A stretch of DNA of 64,000 nucleotides from NCBI RefSeq assembly GCF_001613425.1, contig NZ_BDCI01000011.1:124001-188000 (forward strand), given 5' to 3'. This document shows positions 10,352-43,431 of this stretch, one piece after another (the stretch's first letter is position 1; each line of letters begins with the position of its first letter). The notes beneath the pieces are model-generated. The model worked only from the letters and a program-made list of their open reading frames with translations. It did no database searches and was not told where the DNA came from. The DNA comes from Nocardia vulneris. GTDB lineage: Bacteria; Actinomycetota; Actinomycetes; Mycobacteriales; Mycobacteriaceae. Made by a program: the position numbers and the translations under genes.

Positions 10352-11350
10352 ATGGCAACACAGTCGGCAACGGCGCCGTCTCGCACCGCAGCAAAGGGTG
10401 AGTACACGGCGATCCTGACCACCCTGTCCGAAGGCTCGGTCAATCGGCACTTCGATCCGTACACCGAGATCGACTGGGAATCCGCCGAATGGGCGGTGAT
10501 CCCGAACGATCCGCGCTGGATTCTCCCGGCCGCCACCGATCCGCTCGGCGCGCACCCCTGGTACCTCGCATTGCCGGAAAGCCGCAAGATCGAGATCGGG
10601 ATGTGGCGGCAGGCCAATATCGCGAAGGTCGGGCTGCAGTTCGAGGAGCTGCTCATCGGCGGGGTGATGAACTATCTGTTCGCCAAGGTGCCCAACGGCT
10701 CGGCCGAGTTCCGCTATCTCAATCACGAGGTCGCCGAGGAGGTCAACCACACCCTGATGTTCCAGGAGATGGTCAACCGGATCGGCGCGGACGTCCCGGG
10801 CATGGGCTCGATCATGAAGCTGCTCGGCCCGCTGGTGCCGCTGCTCGGCCGCTTCTTCCCGACCACCTTCTTCGTCGCGGTGCTCGCCGGTGAGGAACCG
10901 ATCGACCATGTGCAGAAGCAGGTGCTGCGCGCGGGCGAGGACGTGCACCCGATCATGCGCGACGTGATGCGGATTCACATCGCCGAGGAGGCCCGGCATA
11001 TCGCCTTCGCACACGAATACCTGCGGCACCGGGTCCCGAAGCAGCACCCGGTACAGCGTGCGACCCTGTCGCTGGCCTACCCGATCATCATGTTCATCGC
11101 CTGCGACCTGATCGTGAAGCCGCCGCGATCGCTGTTCCGCGAGTTCGACATCCCGAAGGGCATCCGGCGCGAACTGTTCTGGCGCAGCGCCGAGGCCAGG
11201 GCGCGGCGGCGCGACTTCTTCGGCGAGGCCAGGATGCTGGCCGCCGAGATCGGGCTGATGAACCCGGCGGCCAAGCTGGCCTGGCGGGCGCTGCGGATCG
11301 ACGGCAAAGAGTCGCGCTACCGCGGCGAACCGGTGCGCACGCACTCCTGA
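10352..11350 (+). CDS. AurF-like diiron oxygenase family protein
   Basis: A 332-residue helical protein resembling the p-aminobenzoate N-oxygenase AurF family (PF11583). The carboxylate/His iron-ligand motifs recur in order: FEELLIGG (about residue 95), HEVAEEVNHTLMF (about 130), AGEEPIDH (about 180) and HIAEEARHIAF (about 215). AurF itself oxidises an aromatic amine with a diiron centre; many actinobacterial homologues have unknown substrates and no nearby biosynthetic genes, as here. The ATG at 10352 follows a GAGG ribosome site. A strong hairpin terminator follows, so the gene is monocistronic. An inverted repeat in the promoter suggests single-gene control. Confidence 0.85.
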   Translation: MATQSATAPSRTAAKGEYTAILTTLSEGSVNRHFDPYTEIDWESAEWAVIPNDPRWILPAATDPLGAHPWYLALPESRKIEIGMWRQANIAKVGLQFEELLIGGVMNYLFAKVPNGSAEFRYLNHEVAEEVNHTLMFQEMVNRIGADVPGMGSIMKLLGPLVPLLGRFFPTTFFVAVLAGEEPIDHVQKQVLRAGEDVHPIMRDVMRIHIAEEARHIAFAHEYLRHRVPKQHPVQRATLSLAYPIIMFIACDLIVKPPRSLFREFDIPKGIRRELFWRSAEARARRRDFFGEARMLAAEIGLMNPAAKLAWRALRIDGKESRYRGEPVRTHS

Positions 11351-24582: not shown

Positions 24583-25863
24583 TCAGCCCGGCACATAGGG
24601 CTCGCCGTCGGCCTTCGGCGGTCGTACCTGGCCGACCGCACCCGCCACGGCGATCACGGTCAGCAGATACGGCGTCATCTGCAGCACCTCGGTCGGGATG
24701 GGCGTCGCCAGCACCTGCAACTGGCCCTGCAACGCCTTGGTGAAACCGAAAAACAGTGCGGCGCAGGTCGCGCCGAGCGGATGCCAGCGGCCCATGATCA
24801 CCGCGGCGAGCGCGATGAAGCCGTTGCCCGCGGTCATCTCCTTGGTGAAACCGCCGGTGGAGCCGATGGTGAAGTAGGCGCCGCCGAGGCCGGCCACCGC
24901 GCCCGCGAGCAGCACGGCCTGATACCGGACGCGCAGCACCTTGATGCCCACCGTCGCCGCGGCGCGCGGGTGTTCACCGACCGCCCGGACCCGCAGACCC
25001 CAGCGCGTCCGGTACAGCACGTAGCCGATCAGCACGACCGCGACGACCATCGCGTACACCAGCGCGGTCTGATCGAAGACGGTCGGGCCGATGATCGGAA
25101 TCGAGGACAGCACCGGAATCGCGATGGGCTGCAACGTGCCCGGGTTGTTGAACCGCGCCGGTCCGTTCGACAGGTCGCCGAGCTGATCGAACAGGAAGCC
25201 GGTGATGCCGGTGGCGAACACCACCAGCACGACGCCGAGCACGATCTGGTTGACCAGGTAGCGGATCGAGAACACCGCGAGCAGCCACGCGACGAACACC
25301 CCGGCGAGTACCGCGGCCACCGCGCCGACCACGAAACTGCCGCTGACCGTGGCGATCAGCGCGGCCGCGAACGCACCCGCCAGCAGCTGGCCTTCGATGG
25401 CGATGTTGATGACGCCCGCGCGTTCGCACAGCACACCGGCCAGCGCGCCGAGAATCAGCGGGGTGGACAGCGCCAGCGTGCCCTGGATCTGATTGGTGAG
25501 CGGAAAGATCTTGCCCGAGGCCGCCCAGCAGACGAACGTCACCACGAACGCGAAACCGAAGACGGTGAACAGCAAGGCCGCCCAGCGCCCGGACAGCCCG
25601 CGCCACAGGTGGGCGATCGCGATGCCGAGCGTGAGCACCGACAGCACCAGCGCCGTCGGTTTGGCGGGTACGTCGATATCCGATGGTCCGGCGGCATCCG
25701 GTGCGGCCAAACGGAAGTCGACGATGCCGGACCGGGTATAGAGCGCCAGCGCCACCGCGGTGAGCGCCAGGATCAGCAGCAGGGTCCCGAGCCGTAGCCG
25801 CCGGTTTCGCTTCTCGGGTGATTCCAGCGGACGGCCGGCGGCCGCGGAGGTGGTCGTCACCAT
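24583..25863 (-). CDS. BMP-type nucleoside ABC transporter permease (second)
   Basis: A 426-residue permease with about ten helices, of the branched-chain/ribose-type (PF02653) fold used by nucleoside importers. The motif LAGVLCERAGVINIAIEGQL is characteristic of the second permease of such systems, and VGEHPRAAATVGIKVLRVRY matches the usual cytoplasmic coupling segment. The N-terminal 80 residues hold an extra helix. The ATG overlaps the stop of the first permease (ATGA). It is the last gene of a four-gene importer operon (binding lipoprotein, ATPase, two permeases). Confidence 0.93.
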   Translation of the reverse strand: MVTTTSAAAGRPLESPEKRNRRLRLGTLLLILALTAVALALYTRSGIVDFRLAAPDAAGPSDIDVPAKPTALVLSVLTLGIAIAHLWRGLSGRWAALLFTVFGFAFVVTFVCWAASGKIFPLTNQIQGTLALSTPLILGALAGVLCERAGVINIAIEGQLLAGAFAAALIATVSGSFVVGAVAAVLAGVFVAWLLAVFSIRYLVNQIVLGVVLVVFATGITGFLFDQLGDLSNGPARFNNPGTLQPIAIPVLSSIPIIGPTVFDQTALVYAMVVAVVLIGYVLYRTRWGLRVRAVGEHPRAAATVGIKVLRVRYQAVLLAGAVAGLGGAYFTIGSTGGFTKEMTAGNGFIALAAVIMGRWHPLGATCAALFFGFTKALQGQLQVLATPIPTEVLQMTPYLLTVIAVAGAVGQVRPPKADGEPYVPG

Positions 25864-27028
25864 CAGTTCCACCCTTTCGCGAGGACGGCGTCCGCACGTT
25901 CGGCTTTGATCCGGAACACGGTGCGCACCACCGCGGGCGCCGCGACCAGCACGACGATCACCGCCTGCAACACGGTGACCAGGGTGAGCGGGGTGCCGGT
26001 CGCGGCCTGCATCTCGTTGCCGCCCGCGTTGAGCGCGCCGAACAGCAGGGCCGCGTAGACGGTGCCGATCGGGCTGCCGCGCCCGAGCAGCGCGACGGTG
26101 ATGCCGTCGAAGCCGAACGATCCGGCGATGCCGTTGGTGAGCGGCAGCGCGGTGCCGAGCACCTGCTGCGCCCCGGCGAGTCCGGCGAGACCGCCGGCGA
26201 GGAGCATGGCCAGCCCGTACGCCTTGCCGACGCTCATCCCCGCGGTGCGCGCGGCATCGGGATTGGCGCCGACGGCACGCAACCGGAAGCCGAGCGTCGA
26301 CCGGGACAGCAGCCACCAGACGAGTCCGGCCGCGCCGAGCGCCACGAGCAGGCCGAGATGCAGCCGGGTATCGCCGAATCGGGGCAGCTGCGCGGTCTCG
26401 TCGACCACCGGGCTGATCGGCTCGTTGCGCCCCGGCCGCTGCAACGTCGAGGTGGTGAGCAACCAGGTGAGCGCGTACAGCGCGACGTAGTTGCCCATGA
26501 TCGTGGTGATCACCTCGTGCGCGCCGGTGCGGGCCTTCAGCAGTCCGGCGAGACCGCCCCACAGCGCGCCGCCCGCGACACCGGCCAGCAAGGCGACCAC
26601 CACGTGCAGCACCGGCGGCAGGTGCAGCGCGAAGCCGACCCAGCCCGCGCAGAGCGCCCCGGCGATGAGCTGACCCTGCGCGCCGATATTGAACAGTCCC
26701 GTTCGGAACGCCAGCGTGACCGCCAGCCCGGTGCAGATCAACGGCGTTGCGGCGACCAGGGTTTCGGCGATCTGGTGTTTGCCGCCGAAGGCCCCGAGGA
26801 ACAGTGCCCGGTACGCCTCGCCGACCGCGGTGCCCGCCGCGGACACCGTGTCCAGCGGCCGCGCGAAGAAATAGCCCAGTGCCGCGGTCACATTCGGGTC
26901 GCTGACGATGATCAGCACCGCGCCGACGGCCAGCGCGAGCACCAATGCCAGTGCGCTGACGACCGTCTCGCGTACCCAGGCCCGGCCCGCCGGTCGGCCG
27001 TTGGTCGAATCGCCGCGCGTCGTCCCGG

Positions 27029-27032
<4 letters not shown>
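25863..27032 (-). CDS. BMP-type nucleoside ABC transporter permease (first)
   Basis: A 389-residue permease with eight to ten helices. The motif LAFRTGLFNIGAQGQLIAGA and the coupling segment VGANPDAARTAGMSVGKAYG are those of the first permease of purine-nucleoside type importers. Its start overlaps the ATPase stop by ATGA and its stop overlaps the next permease. With that permease it should form the heterodimeric membrane channel. The substrate, probably a nucleoside or a related compound, is inferred from the BMP binding protein. Confidence 0.93.
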
Positions 27033-28540
<1,508 letters not shown>

Positions 28541-28567
28541 ATCGCTCCCCGTGGTGACGGCCGCGGC

Positions 28568-29662
28568 TCACTTGGCTGCGGGCTGGGCCTTCGAGGTCAG
28601 CGTGATCTTCCCGCTCGCGATATCGGCGGCCAGCGCGGTGATCTCGCTCTTCAGTTCGGCGGGTACCACGCCGTCGAACTCGTGGTACGGGGCCAGGCTG
28701 ACGCCCTTGTTGGCCAGCGTGCCGACATAGGCCTGGTTGCTGAACTGCTGGTGGAACGCGTCGGTGATCGCCTTCTGCACCGCGACGTCCATCGCCTTCT
28801 CGACGCTGGTGAGCAGCGACGAGCAGTACTCGGCGGCGCTGACACAGCCGTCGGTGTCGACCCAGATCGCGAGGACCTTGCCGCCCGAGGAGTGCGCGGC
28901 TTCCAGCGCGCCCAGACCGGCCGGACCGGCCACCGGCAGTACGATGTCGGCGCCCTGGCTGATCAGATCGTTGGCCTTGGTCTTGCCGATGTTCTTGTCC
29001 TGGAAGTCGTTGGTGATCACGCCCTGCTGTGTGGCCTCGTCCCAGCCGAGCAGCTGCACCTGCTTGTTCTTCACCTTGTTGTAGTGCGCGATGCCCTCGG
29101 CGAAGCCGTCCATGAAGATCGCCACGGTGGGGATGTTGATGCCGCCGAACGTGCCGACCTTGCCGGTCTTGGTCTGCGCCGCGGCCAGATAGCCGGCCAG
29201 GAACGACGGTTGGGCGGAATTGAAGGTCAGCCCCTGCAGGTTCGGCAGCGGCGGGTTCTTCTGGGTATCGGTGTAGGCGTAGTCCACGATCGCGAAGTCG
29301 ATGTCCGGGTTGGCCTTCGCGGCGGCGTAGGTCGCGTCGCCCTGCTTGAAGCCGATGGTGACGATGATGTTGCACTTCTGCCGGACCATCGTGTTGATGT
29401 TGGTCGGGTAGTCGTTGTCGGACTTGGACTCCAGCTGTGCCTTCGAGATGCCGAGCGCGGCGACGGCGTCGGTGACGCCCTTGAAGGAGGTCTGGTTGAA
29501 CGACTTGTCGTCGAACTTGCCGGAGTCCGAGACCATGCACGCCTTGAAGTCCTTGGCGCCCGGTTCACCGGCTTTGTCCTGTTCAGCGGGCGGACTACCG
29601 CACGCCGCGACGGTCAGCACGAGCACACCGGCGGCGGTGAGGGTGCGTAGCAACCTGCCCAT
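28568..29662 (-). CDS. BMP-family substrate-binding lipoprotein
   Basis: A 364-residue lipoprotein with the lipobox VAAC (C21), so it is tethered outside the membrane. The mature protein is a basic membrane protein (BMP/PnrA-like) periplasmic-binding fold: FKACMVSDSGKFDDKSFNQT at the start of the first lobe is the family hallmark, followed by DIDFAIVDYAY and TFGGINIPTV. BMP proteins bind purine nucleosides or related ligands. It is the first gene of the importer operon. The ATG at 29662 follows a perfect AGGAGG ribosome site. Confidence 0.93.
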   Translation of the reverse strand: MGRLLRTLTAAGVLVLTVAACGSPPAEQDKAGEPGAKDFKACMVSDSGKFDDKSFNQTSFKGVTDAVAALGISKAQLESKSDNDYPTNINTMVRQKCNIIVTIGFKQGDATYAAAKANPDIDFAIVDYAYTDTQKNPPLPNLQGLTFNSAQPSFLAGYLAAAQTKTGKVGTFGGINIPTVAIFMDGFAEGIAHYNKVKNKQVQLLGWDEATQQGVITNDFQDKNIGKTKANDLISQGADIVLPVAGPAGLGALEAAHSSGGKVLAIWVDTDGCVSAAEYCSSLLTSVEKAMDVAVQKAITDAFHQQFSNQAYVGTLANKGVSLAPYHEFDGVVPAELKSEITALAADIASGKITLTSKAQPAAK

Positions 29663-29741
29663 TTTTGCCTCCTGAAACGCGATACCCCGCAACCCAACTC
29701 ACCGAACCTGCCGAGGACTGCAGTGGTGGGAGGAGTTTAGG

Positions 29742-29800: not shown

Positions 29801-30952
29801 TTACCCGGTCGCCGCGGCGGTGCGCAGGACCAGGACGGTGATCTCGCTGGGGGCGAAGACACGCAGCTGCGGACCCCAGAATCCGGTGCCGCGACTGGTG
29901 TAGAGCTGGGTGTTCGCGCCGTGTCTGCTCAGGCCGGCCACCACCGGTTGATCCAGCCGGACCAGGTAGTGGAACGGCCAGATCTGGCCGCCGTGGGTGT
30001 GGCCGGAGATCTGCAGATCTATTCCTTCGGCCGCGGTGTCGGTGATCTGCTTGGGCTGATGGGCCAGCAGCACCACCGGCAGCGTCCGGTCCGCGCCGGC
30101 CAGCGCGGTGCGCAGATCGGGGCCGTGACCGGGCAGGCCGACACCGGTCGGATCGTCGATGCCCGCGATCACCAGCCGGTCACCGCCGCGGGTCACCGTC
30201 TCGTGCTGGTTGTGCAGCGGCTGCCAGCCGATCGAGGTCATGTGCTCGATCCAGCCCTGCGCGTCGCCGAAGTACTCGTGATTGCCGGTGATGTAGAACC
30301 GGCCCAGCGGCGCGTCGACCTTGCCGAGCGGATCGACCTGTGGGTGCCGCTTCGCCACCGACCCGTCCGCGAGATCCCCCGCATGACAGGCGATATCGGG
30401 CCGCTGCGCGTTGACGACGTCGACCACTTTTTCCGACCAGCGCAGCCGGTCGAGCGCGGCGAAATGGGTGTCGGTGACGACGACCAGGCGCAATCCGTCG
30501 AGCCCGGGGCCGAGACCGCGAATCGGCACCTCGACCGTGCGCACCCGCGGCACCCGCCGCGCCTCGAACACGCCCCACGCCACCAGCGCGGTCGCGATCA
30601 CGAACACGCCGGCCGCGACGACGCGCGAGCGCGCCGGGTCGGACATCCCGCCGGCCGCCAGCGCCAGACCCGCGACATTGCCGAGCACCGACCAGCTGAA
30701 CACCACCCACAGCACGCCGAGCAGGGTGTCGCCCACGATCGAGGCGGCGTCCGATTGCGCGGGGCCGTGCCCGAGGAACATCGACGCGGGCAGCACCGCG
30801 AAACCGAGCGCGAACAGCGCGGTGCCCAGCCAGAACAGCGGCCCCGCGCCCGTGGTCGGCGCGGCGACCAGCGTCCACCAGGGCAGCAGGAACAACACTG
30901 CGGGGATCGCCAGGAACAGGGCGACGCGGGGCACGTACTTCACAGAGACCAT
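29801..30952 (-). CDS. membrane-anchored metallophosphoesterase
   Basis: A 383-residue protein. The first 140 residues contain about four membrane helices. The rest is a calcineurin-like phosphoesterase domain with its full motif set: TDTHF, AGDLADG, GNHEYFG, LLAHQP and GHTHGGQ, which bind two metal ions. It resembles YkuE-type phosphoesterases; the substrate may be a lipid or cell-wall precursor (inference). The start is uncertain: ATG 30952 is given, with GTG 30973 (close to GGAGGG) and GTG 30943 (good spacing to GAGG) as alternatives. A 25-bp tandem repeat lies just upstream. Confidence 0.88.
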   Translation of the reverse strand: MVSVKYVPRVALFLAIPAVLFLLPWWTLVAAPTTGAGPLFWLGTALFALGFAVLPASMFLGHGPAQSDAASIVGDTLLGVLWVVFSWSVLGNVAGLALAAGGMSDPARSRVVAAGVFVIATALVAWGVFEARRVPRVRTVEVPIRGLGPGLDGLRLVVVTDTHFAALDRLRWSEKVVDVVNAQRPDIACHAGDLADGSVAKRHPQVDPLGKVDAPLGRFYITGNHEYFGDAQGWIEHMTSIGWQPLHNQHETVTRGGDRLVIAGIDDPTGVGLPGHGPDLRTALAGADRTLPVVLLAHQPKQITDTAAEGIDLQISGHTHGGQIWPFHYLVRLDQPVVAGLSRHGANTQLYTSRGTGFWGPQLRVFAPSEITVLVLRTAAATG

Positions 30953-30986
30953 CCTCGGGGCGCGGTTGCGCACGGTCCCTCCGCCC

Positions 30987-31102: not shown

Positions 31103-32023
31103 TCAGGGACGCGTCAGCCGTGCGCCCCACCGGGTCGCGACGGTGTCGCCGGGGGCCAGCCGGATCAGCCGGTCACCGCTCTGAAAGGCGTTGGGCGGAC
31201 ACGTCATCGGCTCCGCGGCCAGACCGGTCCGCCGCCGCGGCGCGGGCAGCGTGTCGCCGGTGAACAACTGGATCACCGGGTAGGAGTCGTCGACCCACAA
31301 CTCGGCGACCGCCCCGTCGGCGCCCTGCAATCGCACCCAGGCGCGGCCGTGCTCGTCCCGGGCCAGATCGGTGAACGGGTGATCGATCACCAGGCCGCCG
31401 AGCGGCTTCGGTGCGGTGAAATCGAAGGCGGTGCCGGGGACGGGTTCGGTGCCGACGGGCAATTGCCGGTCCGGGTCGCTGACGATCCGGGTCGCGGCCG
31501 CGAAGCGCAGCGTCGCCGCGTCGATCGGGCCCGGGCCTGGTGAGAGGTAGGGATGGTGGCCGCAGCCGTACGGCGCGGGCGTGTCGCCCAGATTGCTCGC
31601 CGTGGTGGTCACCGTCAGGCCCTGGTCGGACAGCGCGTAGCGGACGGCGAGCTCGAGCTGGAACGGGTAACCCTTGCTCGGATGCAAGGTGGCCCGCATG
31701 GTGACCTCGTCCTGCTCGTGCTCGGTCGCGCGCCACGGTCGCCAGCGCAGCAACCCGTGGATGGCGTTGTGCTTGCCGGGTTCGGACAGGGCGAGCTGGT
31801 GGTCGACGCCGTCGAACCGGTACTTGCCGTCGGCCAGCCGATTCGGCCAGGGGATCAGCGCGGCGCCGCGGCCGCCGTCCGACATCGCGGTGACGGCATA
31901 GGGCTCGAGCACATCGCGATCACCGACGCGGTACTCCCTGATCCCGCCGCCGACCTCGACGATCACCGCCCGTTGCTCCCCGTGGCCGATGGAGAACTGC
32001 TGTCCGGACGGTGGCGGAGTCAT
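31103..32023 (-). CDS. aldose 1-epimerase family protein
   Basis: A 306-residue beta-sandwich protein of the galactose mutarotase superfamily. The catalytic His is in KHNAIHGLLR near residue 85 and a second in GCGHHPYLSPG near 160; the C-terminal Glu lies in GLAAEPMTCPPNAF. It interconverts the anomers of a hexose or a hexose phosphate. The ATG at 32023 has a poor ribosome site, and a GTG 13 codons upstream is possible. It lies between the metallophosphoesterase and the methyltransferase on the same strand with gaps of roughly 150 and 126 bp, so there is no sign of tight coupling. Confidence 0.88.
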   Translation of the reverse strand: MTPPPSGQQFSIGHGEQRAVIVEVGGGIREYRVGDRDVLEPYAVTAMSDGGRGAALIPWPNRLADGKYRFDGVDHQLALSEPGKHNAIHGLLRWRPWRATEHEQDEVTMRATLHPSKGYPFQLELAVRYALSDQGLTVTTTASNLGDTPAPYGCGHHPYLSPGPGPIDAATLRFAAATRIVSDPDRQLPVGTEPVPGTAFDFTAPKPLGGLVIDHPFTDLARDEHGRAWVRLQGADGAVAELWVDDSYPVIQLFTGDTLPAPRRRTGLAAEPMTCPPNAFQSGDRLIRLAPGDTVATRWGARLTRP

Positions 32024-32149
32024 GGGGAGGACGGTACCGCTCGGCGCCGTGGCCGCCCGCACCTGGTCGGTCGTTCAGTAAACCGCGATGGTCCGGGAAG
32101 GCCGATCGCACAACGAAGTTCGGGCCGCGCACGGCGCACGCCGACGCGG

Positions 32150-34683: not shown

Positions 34684-35826
34684 ATGAGTGCACTCGAACA
34701 ATACTGCATCGACGAGTTCGATGCGAAAACAGACCGGGTAGAATTCCCGGCTGAACCGTCCTATCCGCGATTGTTGGGCGTGGCGACCGCAACGCCGTCC
34801 ACCCGCTACAGCCAACGCGAACTGGTCGAGCTGTTGAATATATCCGACCCCAAAATCAGGGGCATATTTCTCAACGGCGGAATCGAAACCCGGCACCTGG
34901 TGTTGCCGCCCCGCGATCCGGACGGCAATTACCGGGTCGAAACGCAGGGTGAGCTGCTCGCCAAGCATCGGCGGGAAGGCGTGCACGCGGCCGCCCAGGC
35001 GATCCGGGCCTGTCTGCGCGAGCTGGGCCGGGACGTGCGCGACATCGGATACCTGGTGGCCGTCACCACCACCGGCTTCCTGACCCCGGGCTTCAGCGCG
35101 CTGCTGATCAACGAGCTGGGGCTCTCGGCGCATACCGCGCGCCTCGACGTCGTCGGCATGGGCTGCAATGCCGGCTTGAACGGGGTGACCGCCGCGGCCT
35201 CGTGGTCGGCGGCCCATCCCGGCGAGCTGGCGATGCTGGCCTGCTCGGAAACGTGTTCGGCGGCCTACGTTTTCGACGGGACACTGCGTACGGCGGTGGT
35301 GAACAGCCTGTTCGGCGACGGCGCGGCGGCGCTGGCGATCGGCACGGATCTCGTGCCCGAATCGCTCGCGCCGGCCGCCGAGCGCGCGCCCGCGCTGCTG
35401 GCCCAGCGCAGCTACATGATCACGCACGCGGTCGGGGCCATGCGCTACGACTGGGACGAGGACGCGGGCAAGTTCAGCTTCTACCTGGACAAGGAAGTCC
35501 CGTACGAGGTCGGCGCGCACGTGGAGATCGTCGTCGACCGCCTGCTCCTCGAGAACGGACTGCGGCGCAGGGACATCGCGCACTGGATCGTGCATGCCGG
35601 CGGCAAGAAGGTCATCGACGCCGTCAAAATCAATCTCGGTCTCACCGGGCACGATGTGCGGCACACCGTCAGCGTTATGCGCGATTACGGAAATCTCTCC
35701 AGCGGTTCGTTCCTGTTCTCCTATCAGCGACTGCTCGCCGAGCACGTGGTCCGTCCCGGCGACTACGGGATATTGATGACCATGGGGCCCGGCTCGCAGA
35801 TCGAGACCGCATTGCTCAGATTCTGA
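34684..35826 (+). CDS. dpgA: 3,5-dihydroxyphenylacetyl-CoA synthase (type III polyketide synthase)
   Basis: A 380-residue chalcone-synthase-fold enzyme of the DpgA family. The catalytic triad is C161 (VGMGCNAGLNGV), H304 (IVHAGGKK) and N337 (YGNLSSGS). DpgA condenses four malonyl-CoA units and cyclises them to 3,5-dihydroxyphenylacetyl-CoA with help from DpgB and DpgD. Its identity rests on the family pattern and on the following dpgB-dpgC-dpgD order, which matches glycopeptide-antibiotic clusters. The ATG at 34684 is chosen; a TTG at 34660 is in frame but the family does not start there. No NRPS or aminotransferase is nearby, so the product must be used differently. Confidence 0.93.
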   Translation: MSALEQYCIDEFDAKTDRVEFPAEPSYPRLLGVATATPSTRYSQRELVELLNISDPKIRGIFLNGGIETRHLVLPPRDPDGNYRVETQGELLAKHRREGVHAAAQAIRACLRELGRDVRDIGYLVAVTTTGFLTPGFSALLINELGLSAHTARLDVVGMGCNAGLNGVTAAASWSAAHPGELAMLACSETCSAAYVFDGTLRTAVVNSLFGDGAAALAIGTDLVPESLAPAAERAPALLAQRSYMITHAVGAMRYDWDEDAGKFSFYLDKEVPYEVGAHVEIVVDRLLLENGLRRRDIAHWIVHAGGKKVIDAVKINLGLTGHDVRHTVSVMRDYGNLSSGSFLFSYQRLLAEHVVRPGDYGILMTMGPGSQIETALLRF

Positions 35827-35867
35827 TCTCCTGCATCTTTCGAAACCTACCTAGACAAGGCATGTCG

Positions 35868-36593
35868 ATGAACAGTTCACCTGTCGATTCGAACGGCGCC
35901 GAGCAGGGAAATGGCGACGTTCATGTCAGCACCGCGGTGATTTCCGCGGACCGTCCGTTGTCCGCCGATCTGGTGGCCTCGGTGACCGCGGTCGCACGCC
36001 GGGCCGAGGACACGGCGCCGGAATTGCGCCACTGTGTCGTCCTCTATATCGACGGAGCCCGGTCGGACGAATATTTCGCCTGGCCCGGCGATGTCGCCGT
36101 AGCCGACGTCGGCAAATGGGAGAGCGCGCTGCGCCGTCTGGAGCAGGTGCCCGCGCCGATCATCGCCGTGGTGAGCGGTGCGGCCTACGGTCCGGCGGCC
36201 GAATTGCTGCTGGTCGCCGACTACCGGATCGTGCGTGCGGGCGCCGTGTTCGGCTTGGCCCGTACCGGCGCGGGCGTCTGGCCCGCGATGGCGCTCTACC
36301 GGCTCGCCGGGCAGGCGGGCCTCGGCCGCGCCAGGGAGCTGGCGATCCACGGGCGGACGCTGTCCGCCGAGGTGGCGCGCGAACACGGGCTGATCGATCA
36401 GGTGATCACCGAGGGCGGCGAGGCGGCCGCGATCACGGCGGCCGTCGGCCTGTTCGGTGCCGCGGTCGGCTCCGAGCTCGCGATCCGCCGCCGGCTGCTG
36501 CTGGACGCCGCGACCACGCGATTCGAGGATGCCCTCGGCGCCCACCTCGCGGCGTCGGATCGGATGCTGCGCCGAACACGGGCCGCGTCGTGA
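35868..36593 (+). CDS. dpgB: enoyl-CoA hydratase-like accessory enzyme DpgB
   Basis: A 241-residue crotonase-superfamily protein. The fold is visible in [21 protein letters not shown] and [20 protein letters not shown], but the first oxyanion-hole segment is weak, as in DpgB proteins. DpgB raises the output of DpgA and helps in the dehydration and aromatisation steps. ATG 35868 has AAGG at a suitable distance; ATG 35862, two codons upstream, is too close to it. It follows dpgA by about 40 bp, and its stop overlaps the dpgC start (GTGA). Confidence 0.88.
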
Positions 36594-37903
36594 CGGCGGC
36601 CCACCTCTCGCGCGCGGACGCCGCGCTCGACCGCGACCGCGGCGAATTGCGCACGGCGGCAACAGCACACGCCGCCCTCCTGCGTGCACTCGGCCCGGTG
36701 CCGCGGCGGGACGAGATCGACGCCGCGCGCGCGGCCGAGTCCCACCGTGCCGTGCGCACGCTGCGCCGCCGGTTCCTGCGCGCGCATCTGGGCGCGGTGT
36801 ACGCCGCGGCGACCGACGATCTGCGTCGCCCGCTGCGGCTGGCCGAACTCGCCGCGGCGGCCGGGGACCTGTTCCCCGGCCTGCTGCCCGATGCCGAACA
36901 GCTCGCCGCCGAAGCCGGTACGCCGCAGGCGGCCAAGGAAGGCTGGGAGATCGACCAGGGCATCTTCTTCCACGCCGTCTTCGCCGATCCCGTGGCGGGC
37001 AACCATCTGCTGGACGCGATGCGGGCTCCGACGGCCCGCGCCCTCGGGCTGCTGGCCGAATACGAGGCGACCGGGCTGATCACGCTGCCCGCGGTCGAGT
37101 TGCGGCGCATCGGCACCACCGCGACGCTCACCATCACCAACGGCCACTGTCTCAACGCCGAGGACAACCAGCACGTCGCGGACATGGAGTGCGCGGTCGA
37201 TCTGGTGCTGCTCGACCCGCGTTCCCGGGTCGGCGTGGTGCGCGGCGGCGTGATGGATCATCCGCGCTACCGCGGTCGCCGGGTGTTCAGCGCGGGCATC
37301 AATCTGGCGCAGCTGCACGAGGGACGGATCTCATTCGTCGATTTCCTCCTCGGCCGCGAAACCGGTTATATCGCAAAGATTCTGCGCGGGATGACCCGGG
37401 ACGAGCGGCACTGGCTGTCCGGCCCGGCGACCAAGCCGTGGATCGCCGCGGTCGACTCGTTCGCGATCGGCGGCGGCGCGCAACTGCTGCTGGTCTTCGA
37501 CCGGGTGATCGCGGCCGCCGACAGTTTCGTCAGCCTGCCCGCCGCGCAGGAGGGCATCATTCCGGGGGCGGGCAACCTGCGCCTGGGTCGCGCGACGAAC
37601 TTCCGGCTCTCGCGCGAGGTGATCCTGTGGGGTCGCAAGATCGCGGCGACCGATCCCGATGCCCGTCTCGTGCTGGACACGGTGGTCGAGCCCGACGCGA
37701 TGGACGCCGAAATCGACCGGGCCGCAGCACAACTGGCCGCCCCGGCGGTCGTCGCGAACAAGCATATGCTGGTCTGCGCCGAGGAACCGCAGGACGTGTT
37801 CCGGCGCTACCTGTCGGAATTCGCGCTGCATCAGGCGTTGCGCTGCTACAGCACCGACGTGCTGACGAAGGTGAGCCGCTTCCACGCCGGGGTGGGCCGA
37901 TGA
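36590..37903 (+). CDS. dpgC: 3,5-dihydroxyphenylacetyl-CoA dioxygenase
   Basis: A 437-residue protein with the DpgC layout: an N-terminal helical region of about 180 residues, then a crotonase fold. The fold shows [20 protein letters not shown], the oxyanion segment [17 protein letters not shown] and [19 protein letters not shown]. DpgC is a cofactor-free dioxygenase that turns 3,5-dihydroxyphenylacetyl-CoA into 3,5-dihydroxyphenylglyoxylate and CoA. The length and domain order match characterised enzymes. The GTG start overlaps dpgB and the stop overlaps dpgD, so the genes are tightly coupled. Confidence 0.93.
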
Positions 37904-38712
37904 CGCTGTCCGCCGAGGCGCTGACGACGGTCGACTACCGCAAGCACGGCCACGTCGCCACCGTGGAGCTCTGCCGGCCCGAGGTGCTCAACGCGATGAA
38001 CCTGCGGATGCACCACGAGCTCGGGCAGGTCTGGGACGATATCGAGGCCGACCCGGCGATCTGGGTGGTGGTGCTCGGCGGCAAAGGGGGACGGGCGTTT
38101 TCGGTCGGGCAGGATCTGAAGGAGCTGGCCGGCCGGATCGACGCGGGCACGGCGCACTCGTCGTTCGGTAGTGCGGGCAAGCCGGGATTTCCGCGGCTGA
38201 CCGAGCGGTTCGCGTTCGCCAAACCGGTGCTCGCCAAGGTGTCCGGCTACGCGCTGGGCGGTGGTTTCGAGCTCGCGCTCGCCTGCGACCTCATCGTCGC
38301 CGCCGACGACGCCGAATTCGGGCTTCCCGAAGCGAAACTCGGGCTGATCCCGGGGGCGGGCGGGGTGTTCCGGCTGCCGCGGCAGGCGCCGTACCGGGTG
38401 GCGCTGGGGTATCTGCTGACCGGACGGCGGTTGTCCGCCGCACGGGCCGCCGAACTCGGCCTGGTCAACGAGGTGGTTCCGGCCGCCGAACTCGACGCCT
38501 GCGTCGATCGCTGGGTCGCCGACCTGCTGGCCTGTGCGCCGCTGTCGGTGCGCGCGATCAAACAGGCCGCCGCGGCCGGGGCGGCCAAGCCGCTGCCGGA
38601 CGCATTCGTGGCCGATTACCCGTGGGAAACCCTGCGGGCGAACTCGGCCGACGCACAGGAAGGACCCCGGGCCTTCGTGGCGAAACGCGCCCCGAACTGG
38701 ACCGGGCAATGA
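37900..38712 (+). CDS. dpgD: enoyl-CoA hydratase-like enzyme DpgD
   Basis: A 270-residue crotonase. Features are [19 protein letters not shown], the oxyanion-hole segments [10 protein letters not shown] and [20 protein letters not shown], and the acidic residue of [16 protein letters not shown]. DpgD assists dehydration and ring formation with DpgA and DpgB. The ATG overlaps the dpgC stop (ATGA), and the next gene, a ThDP-dependent decarboxylase, starts 11 bp after its stop. By sequence alone it could pass for a general enoyl-CoA hydratase; the context makes DpgD clear. Confidence 0.9.
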
Positions 38713-38722
38713 AGGAATGACA

Positions 38723-40540
38723 ATGGATTCACCTGGTAAGAAGCTGGGCCGCGACATCATCTTCGACTATCTGCGCGACGCGGGGATCGAATACGCCTTC
38801 GGCGTGCCGGGCACCCACGAGATCCCGCTGATCGATGGCACCACCATCCCGGAGAACGGGGTGTCCTACATTCCGTGCCTGCACGAGAACATCGCGCTCG
38901 GCGCCGCCATGGGCTACGCCAGGATGTCGGGGCGGCCGGGCGCGGCGATCGTGCACGTCACGCCGGGCACCGCCAATATCATCGGAAACCTGTTCAACGC
39001 TTACCGTTCCAACATTCCGCTGATCGTGTTCTGCGGCCAGCAGCACAGCGATCTGCTGGTGCAGGAGCCGATTCTGGCCTCGGACCTGGTGCGGACGGCG
39101 GGCCAGTACACCAAGTGGGCCCACGAGATCCGCAACGTCGACGAGATCCCGATCGTCATGCAACGTGCGTTCAAAGAGGTGCTGGTGCCGCCGTTCCAGC
39201 CGGTGTTCATCTCGATACCGTGGAACTTCCTGATCGAGGCGCCCGCGCTGCAGGAGACGGGGCGGGCCACCCGGATCGCGCACGCGGTGATCGGTGATCC
39301 CGCCGGCGTCGCGGCGGCTGCGGAAACCCTTGCCCGCGCGCGGAATCCGGTGCTGCTGGTGGGGGATGGCGTCGGCGAGGCGGCGGCCTGGCCGGAGATC
39401 GAGGAGCTGGCGACGCTGCTCGGCGCGGCGGTCTATTCGACGAATCAATCGAGCAGGCTGAACTATCCGAACGATCTGCCGCACTGGCAGGGCGAGCTGC
39501 TGCCCACCCAGGAGGGTGTGCACATGCAGCTGGGCGACTTCGACACGGTCTTCCAGATCGGGGTGAACACCCAGGCGCAGATCCTCGTCTTCCGCTGGGA
39601 GAACGGGCCGATCATTCCGGCGCACCTCACCCAGGTGACGCTGCACAACGACGCGTGGGAGATCGGCAAGAACTACTACTCGGAGGTCGGGGTCCTCGGC
39701 GACATCGCGATGACATTGCCGCGGATCATCGACGGCATCGCCACCCACCCGGACTTCGACTGGTCCGCGGCGGAGGCGAGAAACTTTCGGGTGCAACAGC
39801 TTTCCGCCGGACGCGACGAGGGGTTCGCGGCCCTGACCGATCTCTTCGCCCACGCCGACGTGGACGCGCGGATTCCCGACATCCAGGTGCCGATGGCCAT
39901 CGCCGAGGTGCAGGAGAAGCTCAGCAAGCCGATCACCGTGATCAACGAGGCGTTCTCGATCCTGGCCGCGGTGCAGAAGACGATCCGGTACGACGTGCCC
40001 GACGCCTACTTCTGCACCACGGGCGGTTCCCTGGGCTTCTCCTTGCCTGCGTCGCTGGGTATTTCGCTCGCGCTGGGTAGGGAGCGGCTGGTCGTGAACA
40101 TCGTCGGCGACGGGTCCGCGCTGTTCCACACCAATGCCTGGTGGACCACGCGCAAGTTCGACCTGCCGGTGCTGTACCTGGTGCTGAACAACCACGAGTA
40201 CAAGACGCTGATGACGGGCGTCGGCGCGATCGAGCAGATCTACGGCTGGGAGCCCGCCAACGAACCCTGGTATCTGCGGCTGGGGCAGCCCAACCAGGAC
40301 TTCGCGGCGATCGCGGCGACCTTCGATATCGACGGCGAGGTCGTCACCGAGGGGTGCAAGCTGCGTGACGCCATCGAGCGCGGGTTCAAGGTGATCGAGG
40401 GCGGTGCGCCCTACGTGATCGACATCCGCGTCGATCCCGCGTCCGGACCGCCCGCACCCACGGTGGACATGTTCATGGCCGAGAAGCCGGGCGTGGACGC
40501 CGAATTGGTGCAACGCCTGCAGGCGCTCGGCCCGCCCTGA
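38723..40540 (+). CDS. ThDP-dependent decarboxylase (benzoylformate decarboxylase-like)
   Basis: A 605-residue ThDP enzyme. The N-terminal Pyr domain has the activating Glu56 (CLHENIALGAAMGYAR), the central domain is Rossmann-like, and the PP domain has the GDG...NN cofactor motif (GDGSALFHTNAW to VLNNHEY, about 461-489). Position suggests the substrate: DpgC makes 3,5-dihydroxyphenylglyoxylate, which is a benzoylformate, so decarboxylation would give 3,5-dihydroxybenzaldehyde. Carboligation is also possible for such enzymes. GAAGGA lies 6 bp before ATG 38723; an ATG six bases earlier is too close. It is 10 bp from dpgD in the same operon and is followed by a 26-bp palindrome. Confidence 0.85.
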   Translation: MDSPGKKLGRDIIFDYLRDAGIEYAFGVPGTHEIPLIDGTTIPENGVSYIPCLHENIALGAAMGYARMSGRPGAAIVHVTPGTANIIGNLFNAYRSNIPLIVFCGQQHSDLLVQEPILASDLVRTAGQYTKWAHEIRNVDEIPIVMQRAFKEVLVPPFQPVFISIPWNFLIEAPALQETGRATRIAHAVIGDPAGVAAAAETLARARNPVLLVGDGVGEAAAWPEIEELATLLGAAVYSTNQSSRLNYPNDLPHWQGELLPTQEGVHMQLGDFDTVFQIGVNTQAQILVFRWENGPIIPAHLTQVTLHNDAWEIGKNYYSEVGVLGDIAMTLPRIIDGIATHPDFDWSAAEARNFRVQQLSAGRDEGFAALTDLFAHADVDARIPDIQVPMAIAEVQEKLSKPITVINEAFSILAAVQKTIRYDVPDAYFCTTGGSLGFSLPASLGISLALGRERLVVNIVGDGSALFHTNAWWTTRKFDLPVLYLVLNNHEYKTLMTGVGAIEQIYGWEPANEPWYLRLGQPNQDFAAIAATFDIDGEVVTEGCKLRDAIERGFKVIEGGAPYVIDIRVDPASGPPAPTVDMFMAEKPGVDAELVQRLQALGPP

Positions 40541-40555
40541 TCCGGCTCGCAACAC

Positions 40556-40581
40556 CGTGGGGCGGCGGCCGCCGCCCCACG
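40556..40581. terminator. 26-bp perfect palindrome between the decarboxylase and catalase-like genes
   Basis: CGTGGGGCGGCGG (40556-40568) is followed at once by its reverse complement (40569-40581). It lies 15 bp after the decarboxylase stop. It can fold as a strong hairpin without a T tract, so it may terminate or attenuate transcription before the redox genes; a dimer-binding site is the alternative. Confidence 0.6.
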
Positions 40582-40605: not shown

Positions 40606-41676
40606 ATGACCGACGAAAGTTCGGGCTTGTCGTTGAACCGGCGCACGGTACTGGGCGGCGCGGTGCTCGCCGCCGTCGGCGCCGCGGGCATCGGTGGCTT
40701 CCTGTTCAGTGAAAACATCATCGGCCCTTGGCGTTTGACGGCCCGGCGGGTCGCCGACCGGCTGCAGGAGGCGGCGGGCGGGAACTTTTCCGGCCGCCGC
40801 CGCAACCACGCCAAAGGGATTGCCGTGGCAGGGTATTTCGAGAGCAACGGCAACGGCGTCGAAGTGTGCAAGGCGTCGGTGTTCCGCGCCGGCCGGTATC
40901 GCCTCGACGGCCGTTTCTCCCTGGCCGGCGGAAATCCGCACGTGCCCGACGATCTCGCTACGCCGCGCGGGCTCGGCCTGCGGCTGTTCCTGCCCGACGG
41001 CGAGCAGTGGCGGCTGGCCCTGGTGAACGTCCCGGTGTTTCTCGACGCGACGCCGGACGATTTCTACACGCGGACACTCGCTTTCGCACCCGATCCGGCG
41101 ACCGGCAAGCCCGACCCGGCGCGGATGCGGCAGCACCTGGCCACCCATCCGAAAACCGCGGCCGCCTTGGCGCTCATCGAGCAGGGGCCGCACGCCCCGA
41201 GCTTCGCCAGTTCGACCTACTACGGCCTCAACGCTTTCGAGTGCACCGACGCCGCGGGCCGGGCAGTGCCCGTGCGCTGGCAACTCGAACCGGAGGCGAA
41301 CCCGGTGCCGCCGCAGCGGCCGGGCGCGGACCAGCTGTTCGACGCGCTCGTCGCCGAGCTGCGGCGCGGTCCGCTGCGCTGGAAACTGCGCCTGGTCATC
41401 GGGATTCGCGGCCAGGACGCCACCGACGACGCGACGAAACCGTGGCCCGCCGATCGGCGCGCCGTGGAGGTCGGCACGTTGGTGCTCGACGCGGTGCACA
41501 CCGAAGCCGCCGACAATGTGCAGGACGTCAATTTCGATCCGCTCGTGCTACCCGACGGCATCGCGGCCTCCGACGATCCGCTGCTGCCCGCTCGGTCGGC
41601 CGTCTACGCCGAGTCGTTCCGGCGGCGGGCGGGCGAGCCGCGGGCCGCGGGTGCGATCCAGGTGGTGCAGGCGTGA
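40606..41676 (+). CDS. Tat-exported catalase-family haem protein (SrpA-like)
   Basis: A 356-residue protein. The N-terminus NRRTVLGGAVLAAVGAAGIG has a twin-arginine-type motif and hydrophobic stretch, so it may be exported folded. The remainder is a small catalase-related fold: the distal His is in RRRNHAKGIAVAGYF, and the proximal Tyr of the YxxxxR type is in SAVYAESFRRR near the C-terminus. These mini-catalases are usually peroxidases or catalases with low activity. Its stop overlaps the cytochrome b561 start by one base (TGATG), a pairing that suggests electron transfer between membrane and exported haem. A role in dpg-product oxidation is only inferred. Confidence 0.87.
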   Translation: MTDESSGLSLNRRTVLGGAVLAAVGAAGIGGFLFSENIIGPWRLTARRVADRLQEAAGGNFSGRRRNHAKGIAVAGYFESNGNGVEVCKASVFRAGRYRLDGRFSLAGGNPHVPDDLATPRGLGLRLFLPDGEQWRLALVNVPVFLDATPDDFYTRTLAFAPDPATGKPDPARMRQHLATHPKTAAALALIEQGPHAPSFASSTYYGLNAFECTDAAGRAVPVRWQLEPEANPVPPQRPGADQLFDALVAELRRGPLRWKLRLVIGIRGQDATDDATKPWPADRRAVEVGTLVLDAVHTEAADNVQDVNFDPLVLPDGIAASDDPLLPARSAVYAESFRRRAGEPRAAGAIQVVQA

Positions 41677-42236
41677 TGACCGCACTCGGCGAAACCCGCA
41701 CCGAGCAGCCCGCCCGCTTCGGGGTCACGGCGCGAATCCTGCACTGGCTGATGGCGATCCTGATCGTCGCGATGATTTTCGTCGGTGGCGCGCTGGTCGG
41801 CTCGCTCGGCCACTACCGGCTGCTACTGGAGGTGCACAAATCCCTCGGGTTCGCGATCCTGGTGCTCGCCGTACTGCGCATCGGAAATCGGCTGTGGCAC
41901 CGGCCGCCCCCGCCGCCGCTCGGCCTCAGCAAGCCCGAGCGGCTGGTCGCCACCGGCTCCGAAATCCTCATGTACGCACTGTTCCTGGCCCAGCCGATCA
42001 TCGGCTGGGCGCTGGTTTCGGCCTCGGGGATCCCGATCCGGGTCTTCGGCGGGCTGCGCGTCCCGGCGATCGCGCCCACCGACGCCGGGCTGTACGCGAC
42101 GCTGCGCACGGTGCACGGCATCCTGGCCTACTTGCTGCTCGCGGCCTTCACCGCGCATATCTGCGCGGTGCTGTTCCATGCGTTGCTGTTGCGGGACAAG
42201 CTGCTTCGGCGCATGACCTTCGGCTCGCGCCGTTAG
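41676..42236 (+). CDS. cytochrome b561 family protein
   Basis: A 186-residue four-helix membrane cytochrome. The haem-binding His residues are in RILHWLMA, LEVHKSLGF, TVHGILAY and AHICAVLFHALLL, matching the bacterial b561/YodB type that binds two haems b. It moves electrons between quinol and periplasmic acceptors. ATG 41676 (or GTG 41673) overlaps the catalase-like gene, a common partnership for SrpA-like proteins. The MFS gene starts 10 bp after its stop. Confidence 0.92.
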   Translation: MTALGETRTEQPARFGVTARILHWLMAILIVAMIFVGGALVGSLGHYRLLLEVHKSLGFAILVLAVLRIGNRLWHRPPPPPLGLSKPERLVATGSEILMYALFLAQPIIGWALVSASGIPIRVFGGLRVPAIAPTDAGLYATLRTVHGILAYLLLAAFTAHICAVLFHALLLRDKLLRRMTFGSRR

Positions 42237-42246
42237 GGCCTGTGTC

Positions 42247-43431
42247 ATGAAACCCGCCGCGGTCGAGCGCGACCGCACCGCAGGCCTGCCGACCGCGGGA
42301 CTGCTGATCGGCATCGTGCTGATCGGCGCGAACCTGCGGGCCGCGCTCACCGGCGTCGGCGCGCTGCTGCCCACCATCGAACGCGAGACGGGGCTGTCCA
42401 GTACGGGCAGCGGGGTGCTCGGCGCGTTGCCGTTGCTGATCTTCGCCGCCGTCGCACCCCTGGTCGCCCGGATCGCGGGCCGCGGATCCGCACGGGTGCT
42501 GCTGGTCGCCCTGCTCGGGCTCGTCGCGGGTGTGCTGCTGCGTTCGGCCGCCGGCCTGTGGTGCCTGTTCGCGGGCACCGCGATCCTGGCCGTGGCCATT
42601 ACCTTCGGCAACGTGCTGTTGCCGGCGGTGCTGCGTGCGACCCTGCCCGAGCGCCGGATCGGCTGGGCGACAGGCGCTTACGTGACCGCGATGACCTTGG
42701 CCGCGGCGGTGTCGTCAGGGGTGTCGGTGCCGCTGTCGGAGCACTTGCCCGGCGGCTGGCGCAGCGCGCTGGCATGCTGGGCGGTGCTCGCGGTCGCCGC
42801 GCTGCTGGTCTGGTCGGGGCAGCAGCGACGACACGTGCGGGCACCGGCCGCCACGGCGCCCGCGGGCATGCCGTGGCGGTCCGGCCTCGCCTGGCAGGTC
42901 AGCGTGTTCATGGGCCTGCAGTCGCTGGGCTTCTACGCGATCATCGCCTGGCTGCCGAGCATCGTGCACGACAACGGCATGTCGGAGCGGGCGGCGGGCT
43001 TGCTGCTGTTCGCCTTTCAGCTGCTCGGCCTGCTCGCGGTCAACCTGCTGCCGTGGCTCGAACGGTGGCTCGGCGACCAGCGGCTGCTCGCCGCGGGCGC
43101 CTCCGCGCTCAACGCGATCGGTTTCCTGCTGCTCGCGCTCGCGCCGCGCTCGGCGCTGGTCTCGGTGCTGCTGATCGGTCTCGGCGCGGGCGTATGCCTG
43201 GTGCTGGCCATGACCTTCCAGAGCAGGCGGGCCCGCGACGCCGCGCAGGCGGCCGCCCTCGCCGGGATGGCACAGACGGTCGGCTTCGCGGTCGCCGCGG
43301 TCGGCCCGTTGCTGCTCGGTTTGCTGCACACGCTGACCGCGGGCTGGGCGCTCGCGCTGCTCACACTGACCGCCGCGACGCTGGCACAGGCAGTGGTCGG
43401 TTGGGGTGCGGGACGTGACGTGCGGCTGTGA
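42247..43431 (+). CDS. MFS transporter (CynX/NimT-like)
   Basis: A 394-residue transporter with twelve helices. The opening LIGIVLIGANLRAALTGVGA and the later FMGLQSLGFYAIIAWLPSI are characteristic of the CynX/NimT/YycB branch, whose members carry cyanate, nitroimidazoles or other small aromatic molecules. It is 10 bp after the b561 gene, on the same strand as the dpg genes, and could export the resorcinol product (inference). The ATG at 42247 is chosen; the ribosome site is weak, which suits coupling. Confidence 0.9.
   Translation: MKPAAVERDRTAGLPTAGLLIGIVLIGANLRAALTGVGALLPTIERETGLSSTGSGVLGALPLLIFAAVAPLVARIAGRGSARVLLVALLGLVAGVLLRSAAGLWCLFAGTAILAVAITFGNVLLPAVLRATLPERRIGWATGAYVTAMTLAAAVSSGVSVPLSEHLPGGWRSALACWAVLAVAALLVWSGQQRRHVRAPAATAPAGMPWRSGLAWQVSVFMGLQSLGFYAIIAWLPSIVHDNGMSERAAGLLLFAFQLLGLLAVNLLPWLERWLGDQRLLAAGASALNAIGFLLLALAPRSALVSVLLIGLGAGVCLVLAMTFQSRRARDAAQAAALAGMAQTVGFAVAAVGPLLLGLLHTLTAGWALALLTLTAATLAQAVVGWGAGRDVRL

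Follow-up and report, generated by a model that had tools for sequence, protein, structure and literature searches.

The window considered here, a 64,000-nucleotide stretch of Nocardia vulneris DNA (contig NZ_BDCI01000011.1, positions 124,001 to 188,000, from a genome of 9.38 Mb in 74 contigs), carries a compact row of eight genes: dpgA, dpgB, dpgC and dpgD, followed by genes for a thiamine diphosphate (ThDP)-dependent enzyme, a catalase-fold heme protein (catl), a cytochrome b561 membrane protein (b561) and a major facilitator superfamily (MFS) transporter. On balance, we favor an operon reading in which dpgABCD-ThDP-catl-b561-MFS directs the synthesis and export of a small phenol of resorcinol type, either 3,5-dihydroxybenzaldehyde itself or one of its derivatives, and in which the peroxidase/b561 pair acts outside the cytoplasm. 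The DpgABCD enzymes are known for providing precursors of glycopeptides and of aryl-primed polyketides. Here, they stand in a short row with a decarboxylase-like lineage of their own, a heme protein predicted to be exported, a b561 and a transporter, an arrangement that occurs in 17 of 150 Nocardia genomes, one of them without the dpg part on its contig. If our reading is correct, the row would constitute a short path leading from malonyl-CoA to an aldehyde of resorcinol type, different ThDP lineages would have been recruited to a single intermediate, and the link between a secreted phenol and an envelope peroxidase would call for an explanation.

The first four genes, on the plus strand like the remainder of the row, are readily assigned. 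The dpgA gene (34684..35826) encodes a type III polyketide synthase (PKS), 3,5-dihydroxyphenylacetyl-CoA synthase, with Pfam chalcone/stilbene synthase domains (NF042429, 573.1 bits, cut-off 425); dpgB (35862..36593) encodes an enoyl-CoA hydratase-like protein (NF042431, 186.9 bits, cut-off 140); dpgC (36590..37903) the cofactor-free dioxygenase that yields the arylglyoxylate (NF042432, 574 bits, cut-off 530; E 1.5e-135 to the DpgC structure in the PDB); and dpgD (37900..38712) an enoyl-CoA hydratase (NF042430, 452.2 bits, cut-off 400). All four exceed their own NCBIfam equivalog cut-offs, and the intergenic gaps are 35, -4 and -4 bases, which bears out the short gaps and overlaps reported in the preliminary description of this locus. 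Aligned with PDB DpgC, the window protein has the same residue at positions E189, I235, R254, G296 and Q299, which we take to be active-site residues. It is established for these families that DpgA, with DpgB and DpgD, converts four malonyl-CoA to 3,5-dihydroxyphenylacetyl-CoA, and that DpgC turns the latter into 3,5-dihydroxyphenylglyoxylate; the window's proteins would be expected to do likewise.

The ThDP gene (38717..40540, plus strand) has two possible starts, ATG 38717, 4 bases past dpgD, and ATG 38723, for which the 10-base spacing given earlier holds. Its product contains all three Pfam domains of thiamine pyrophosphate enzymes (PF02776, PF00205, PF02775), its nearest PDB relatives are named benzoylformate decarboxylase (BFD), and BFD is also its best curated family, ahead of the acetolactate synthases. 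In the first phylogenetic tree described below, the protein stands apart from the five other ThDP enzymes of the same genome that were included; placement with oxalyl-CoA or acetolactate enzymes had been named in the preliminary description as a refuting outcome. Two of the BFD residues compared are retained: Glu57 and His80 correspond to BFD Glu47, presumably the ThDP-binding residue, and His70, which together with His281 we take to be an active-site residue. Both are conserved in 37/37 aligned rows, and Thr33 occupies the position of BFD Ser26. The protein is 99% identical to its counterparts in two Nocardia brasiliensis records. Decarboxylation is plausible for this enzyme, which would convert the glyoxylate to 3,5-dihydroxybenzaldehyde. 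A structure prediction based on 16 sequences was of poor quality (mean pLDDT 65, pTM 0.57).

This enzyme is genetically tied to the Dpg pathway. We searched 150 Nocardia genomes with three queries, DpgC, the ThDP protein and catl (genomes and loci are denoted below by G and L identifiers). Matches to dpgC above cut-off occur at 25 loci in 24 genomes, and the Nocardia-type ThDP enzyme occurs in 23 genomes, 22 of which also have dpgC. In all 22 the two genes share a contig; the distance between them is below 1 kb in 21 genomes and about 6 kb in G349. In the remaining genome, G853, the ThDP gene lies at base 128 of its contig and is followed by catl, with no dpgC match. The pairing of dpgC with a ThDP decarboxylase-like gene, for which the preliminary description had proposed a genome search, is not due to chance, given a shared contig in 22 of the 23 ThDP-bearing genomes among 150. 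Directly after the ThDP gene comes catl in 17/23 genomes (G853 included). These 17 are not independent, because four of them, the window's included, are near kin with ThDP proteins 99-100% alike. Apart from the window, 17 catl-bearing locus identifiers were read (two or more contigs occur under two identifiers), and in 17/17 catl is followed by b561 and the MFS gene. The flanks of five loci compared gene by gene mostly differ, with a few genes shared among L031, L033 and L034. Named carriers of the operon are N. brasiliensis, N. abscessus, N. arthritidis, N. amikacinitolerans, N. mexicana, N. lijiangensis and N. pneumoniae; N. wallacei and N. transvalensis are also carriers, on truncated contigs from which dpg is partly or wholly missing. 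The scan for relatives beyond the genus used two strict peptide patterns and therefore does not imply that the operon is absent outside Nocardia.

A Pfam scan covering 50 window proteins (some 15 further open reading frames from a rough gene caller, all shorter than 310 amino acids, lay outside it) found no domains of nonribosomal peptide synthetases (NRPSs), PKSs, aminotransferases or aldehyde dehydrogenases; the same proteins include no type I PKS with an aryl-acid loading module and no linked aminotransferase and NRPS, and beyond the window the genome was not searched for PKS or NRPS genes. The absence of an aminotransferase and an NRPS, as claimed earlier, thus stands for the scanned proteins of the window. 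Conceivably, a general aminotransferase could aminate the glyoxylate for an unlinked NRPS, with the ThDP enzyme having no part in it. DpgABCD does yield 3,5-dihydroxyphenylglycine in classical clusters, and aminotransferase genes adjoin dpg in L036, L073, L074, L075 and L102, the last being the locus of G765, where dpg occurs with an aminotransferase homologue. Yet the genome's eight best matches to the L102 aminotransferase are only 26-34% identical, the top match by E-value reaching 30% over part of its length, and the invariable co-occurrence of the ThDP gene and dpgC on one contig also speaks against such a route, which we consider highly improbable. The preliminary description had named an aminotransferase/NRPS cluster elsewhere in the genome as one of two refuting cases; the aminotransferase half of it finds just these distant matches, and the NRPS half has been addressed within the window. 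Because DpgABCD here lacks a nearby aminotransferase or NRPS and is genetically tied to a BFD-like ThDP enzyme, the most economical interpretation is that the glyoxylate is decarboxylated, as the preliminary description had proposed.

The conserved row does not end at the ThDP gene, where the preliminary description had stopped, thereby missing catl, b561 and the MFS gene; it extends to at least 43431. The gaps between these last genes are 65, -1 and 10 bases, and all gaps along the eight-gene row fall within -4 to 65 bases. The catl gene (40606..41676, plus strand) encodes a protein with a catalase domain (PF00199, 86 bits), a distal-His motif, a proximal R-x-x-x-Y motif and a twin-arginine export signal predicted by eye. 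The twin arginine, RNHAKG and R-x-x-x-Y, likewise read by eye, are conserved in 17 aligned sequences. Its best PDB match, of moderate similarity (121 bits), is 3e4w, which we take to be a Mycobacterium avium protein that is related to catalases and acts as a peroxidase. From these features, we infer that the catl product is an exported peroxidase. The b561 gene (41676..42236, plus strand; PF01292, 97 bits) encodes a membrane protein with conserved His in 11 aligned sequences, and the last gene (42247..43431, plus strand) an MFS transporter of CynX/NimT type (PF07690, 84 bits; TIGR00896, 285 bits, below the cut-off of 406). Since neither an aldehyde dehydrogenase nor a PKS follows, the aldehyde or a simple derivative would be the end product and would leave through the MFS transporter. 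Outside the cytoplasm, the phenol would meet the peroxidase, exported through the twin-arginine translocation (Tat) pathway and working with b561 and the quinone pool, and could serve there as a co-substrate, undergo its final modification or be rendered harmless.

The ancestry of the ThDP enzyme indicates how it may have come to stand beside dpg. Among 394 genomes of the class searched for dpgC at E 1e-60 or better, 12 carry it, the window's own included. With the window's ThDP protein as query (E 1e-30), a single genome among the 11 other carriers, G494, yielded a match next to dpgC; it is 33% identical and stands in the order dpgABC-ThDP-aldehyde dehydrogenase-dpgD, which is that of the vem (venemycin) cluster. 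Used as a query in turn, the G494 protein matched 29 of 372 genomes of the genus of G534; the eight VemE-like loci read include five with dpgC, one with dpgA and five with an aldehyde dehydrogenase gene. The VemE/Ken5 lineage is represented here by loci with vem gene order (L072, L125-L127, L129, L131, L132), whose enzymes are 30-33% identical to the window's, and not by the VemE and Ken5 sequences themselves.

From 56 ThDP rows, a first tree was built with 46 and a second with 39, 12 of them from Nocardia. The first tree left out L038, L039, L041, L042, L047, L057, L097 and L098 (near copies or same contig) and two pieces of L119; L117 and L118 gave no row, and L043, L049, L050 and L097 are truncated at contig ends. 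Both trees unite the Nocardia enzymes in a single clade (100/100), place a dpg-less actinobacterial family closest to it, and recover the VemE-like enzymes as a separate clade. The ThDP enzyme of G852 (L101), on a long branch, groups with BFD proper. Topology tests, run after the first tree had been seen, rejected a single clade of the Nocardia enzymes with L072 and the G852 enzyme (p-AU 1.3e-5), with L072 alone (p-AU 1.7e-6) and with nine VemE-like rows (p-AU 2.7e-48). Owing to the long branches, the deep branching order is less certain than the separation of the Nocardia and VemE-like enzymes. ThDP enzymes beside dpg come from three lineages: the Nocardia type, the VemE/Ken5-like type (L072 and 6/8 loci read from a different genus) and a third type, seen in L101. 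Because different lineages adjoin dpg, we read this as probable convergence on one step, and the rejection of a common clade suggests that dpg acquired the Nocardia enzyme independently of the VemE/Ken5-like decarboxylase. The dpg-less sister family, 46-51% identical to the window's enzyme, is found in Saccharopolyspora, Saccharothrix and Actinorugispora (L051-L056, L058), and a scan of five neighbors gave no hint of its function. A further relative is encoded on the Photobacterium plasmid pGJ3-1 (L119:4968-6928), its gene split over two frames. The G852 locus (L101:7008-15239), from the same genus as the window, combines dpgABCD with the BFD-proper-like ThDP enzyme and an aldehyde dehydrogenase homologue.

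Several observations weigh against a phenol-making and phenol-exporting operon, some concerning the ThDP enzyme and others the gene row. The label BFD-like, given earlier, holds for the closest structures and the best curated family; the score against the BFD equivalog NF005485, however, is 263.2 bits and does not reach the cut-off of 493. The comparison of active sites suggested in the preliminary description is similarly mixed, with Glu47 and His70 matched and His281 replaced in the Nocardia clade by Phe292 plus a three-residue insertion. Because of the low score and this replacement, the substrate or the outcome of the reaction may differ from that of BFD. In addition, 2/8 VemE-like loci lack any dpg gene within 1.5 kb on either side. 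A specific alternative is that the enzyme is a carboligase, joining the acyl anion of the arylglyoxylate to an aldehyde or a second keto acid to give a 3,5-dihydroxyphenyl acyloin and not the free aldehyde. It would accord with a lineage separate from both BFD proper and the VemE-like enzymes, with the Phe or Tyr at the His281 position and the QAQ insertion common to the Nocardia enzyme and its dpg-less sister family, and with a variant locus, described below, whose PKS-type genes could furnish other partners. The seven VemE-like rows aligned all keep His281. Against carboligation, the variants read share no acceptor-making gene, and Tyr occupies the His281 position in three proteins that do exceed the BFD cut-off (L105, L109, L110). 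A His281Phe variant of BFD is said to retain much activity. We keep decarboxylation as our preferred reading and regard carboligation as unlikely.

As for the gene row, 6/23 genomes (G766, G767, G777, G802, G840 and G349) lack catl directly after the ThDP gene. In G766, G777 and G802, the ThDP gene is followed by genes for a protein resembling ketoacyl-acyl carrier protein synthase III (KAS III) and for a type I PKS that has one module and about 1,290 residues; in G349 it stands apart, with a PKS near. The G840 contig ends inside the ThDP gene, and the G767 locus lies outside those read. Conversely, catl occurs away from dpg in 14 further genomes (G852 included) at 48-64% identity, with matches at 33-36% in three more. 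At the dpg-less catl loci (L085-L094), b561 stands beside catl in 10/10 read and any other gene is common to at most two of the ten; because the pair is also found away from dpg, catl-b561 may be a passenger in the row. Finally, a perfect G+C-rich inverted repeat (40556..40581, plus strand), noted from the sequence and the fold of the gap between the ThDP gene and catl, has no T run and is a possible attenuator; such hairpins are present in some relatives and weak or absent in others, and this one could split the transcript in some strains. Three loci have dpgC without a Nocardia-type ThDP enzyme (G765, G852 and contig 6 of G840). A second Nocardia arrangement emerges from L044, L095, L096 and L098, in which dpgABCD-ThDP is followed by the KAS III-like gene and the type I PKS of about 1,290 amino acids in place of catl-b561-MFS; L044, where the ThDP gene is again succeeded by these two genes, belongs to N. 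amamiensis.

Such PKS-bearing relatives lend some weight to a route like those of kendomycin (ken) and venemycin, in which an unlinked aldehyde dehydrogenase would oxidize the aldehyde and the resulting 3,5-dihydroxybenzoate would prime a type I PKS encoded at another genomic site. The genome offers 32 matches to the aldehyde dehydrogenase family PF00171. None of them falls inside the window, however, and the sole match on its contig lies about 50 kb downstream; the genome's matches to the vem-type aldehyde dehydrogenase reach at most 42% identity, compared with 51-72% for those beside dpg elsewhere; and what follows the ThDP gene in 17 genomes is catl and not a PKS. With PKS genes searched for within the window, we consider this route quite unlikely, and still favor export of the aldehyde or a derivative of it.

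A more specific role for that product is suggested by analogy. Two reports describe b561 proteins in defense against oxidants: LcoA, a b561 whose gene is linked to that of a secreted lipocalin in Gram-negative bacteria, serves in defense against peroxyl radicals (PMC9113575), and a membrane superoxide oxidase of b561 type takes part in oxidative defense (PMC11869295). Since LcoA-type links between b561 and secreted proteins exist, the row could be thought of as an envelope oxidative-defense system, in which the secreted resorcinol-type aldehyde or derivative would be the cell's own phenolic electron carrier and the reducing co-substrate of the Tat-exported peroxidase, b561 linking the cycle to the quinone pool. 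This proposal is speculative and, in our estimation, rather unlikely. If true, Dpg chemistry would serve redox protection and not antibiotic assembly.

The boundaries of the row were drawn by comparison with relatives. A cytochrome P450 gene (33055-34236, plus strand) ends 447 bases 5' of dpgA, and an equivalent gene is found at this position in both N. brasiliensis records and in no other Nocardia dpg locus compared. Upstream of it, an S-adenosylmethionine (SAM)-dependent methyltransferase gene (PF04672, 32150-32959) is oriented away from dpgA. These two and an aldose epimerase gene (31103-32062) were dropped as operon members, as, among the loci compared, just the two N. brasiliensis records have all three in place; against dropping upstream genes, L045 has a 44% match to the methyltransferase 5' of dpgA, and L042/L032 have, likewise 5' of dpgA, a 46% match to the window's metallophosphoesterase (29801-30973). 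The downstream M23 and LigD-polymerase genes, likewise in place only in the two N. brasiliensis records, were also dropped. A MarR-type regulator gene divergent from dpgA is present in ten locus identifiers (eight contigs) of relatives, for example L031:6438-6917, and was not found in the window. Elsewhere in the window are an AurF-type N-oxygenase gene (10352-11350; PF11583, 337 bits) and genes for a BMP-type substrate-binding protein, an ATPase and a permease (25863-29692), which resemble a putative B6 ATP-binding cassette (ABC) transporter, all below curated cut-offs.

At the level of titles and abstracts, with most subscription journals outside the scope, no description of the dpgABCD-ThDP-catl-b561-MFS operon in Nocardia was found, and passages of a paper on type III PKSs in Nocardia (PMC13269418) name neither kendomycin, venemycin nor dpg. 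The idea that the glyoxylate is decarboxylated to 3,5-dihydroxybenzaldehyde has precedents, having already been proposed in print for the kendomycin and venemycin clusters. According to passages of the pertinent reports, VemA-F and Ken2-7 comprise DpgA-D homologues, a ThDP decarboxylase proposed to form 3,5-dihydroxybenzaldehyde, and an aldehyde dehydrogenase leading to 3,5-dihydroxybenzoate (PMC5132015), which is the PKS starter proposed for both clusters (PMC5132015, PMC8708025); glyoxylate decarboxylation is proposed for VemE, Ken5 and Kmy15, each beside DpgABCD homologues (PMC5132015, PMC8708025); and in a type III PKS mutant, kendomycin B was restored by feeding 3,5-dihydroxybenzoic acid (3,5-DHBA; PMC8708025).

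Comparison with these and other known systems places the Nocardia row among familiar parts in a distinct combination. Glycopeptide antibiotic clusters employ the same four Dpg enzymes, whereas no aminotransferase or NRPS is seen in the window, and the glyoxylate there probably has a fate other than the glycopeptide type. BFD shares with the window's ThDP enzyme its fold family and the Glu47/His70 matches, but the latter falls below the family cut-off and has Phe at the His281 position. The catalase fold and heme motifs of 3e4w are common to catl, which, unlike that protein, we find in a row with phenol-making genes. As in the LcoA system, a b561 gene is tied to that of a secreted protein, with the difference that the pair in the window adjoins genes for making a phenol. 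Further parallels are the ken2-7, kmy14-18 plus kmy29 and vemA-F modules, which like the window unite DpgABCD homologues with a ThDP decarboxylase. Those clusters also include an aldehyde dehydrogenase and a type I PKS, neither seen in the Nocardia window, whose ThDP enzyme lies outside the VemE/Ken5-like lineage as represented by its stand-ins and carries Phe in place of their His281; where the ken and vem clusters have an aldehyde dehydrogenase and a PKS, the window has genes for a peroxidase-like catl protein, a b561 and an MFS transporter.

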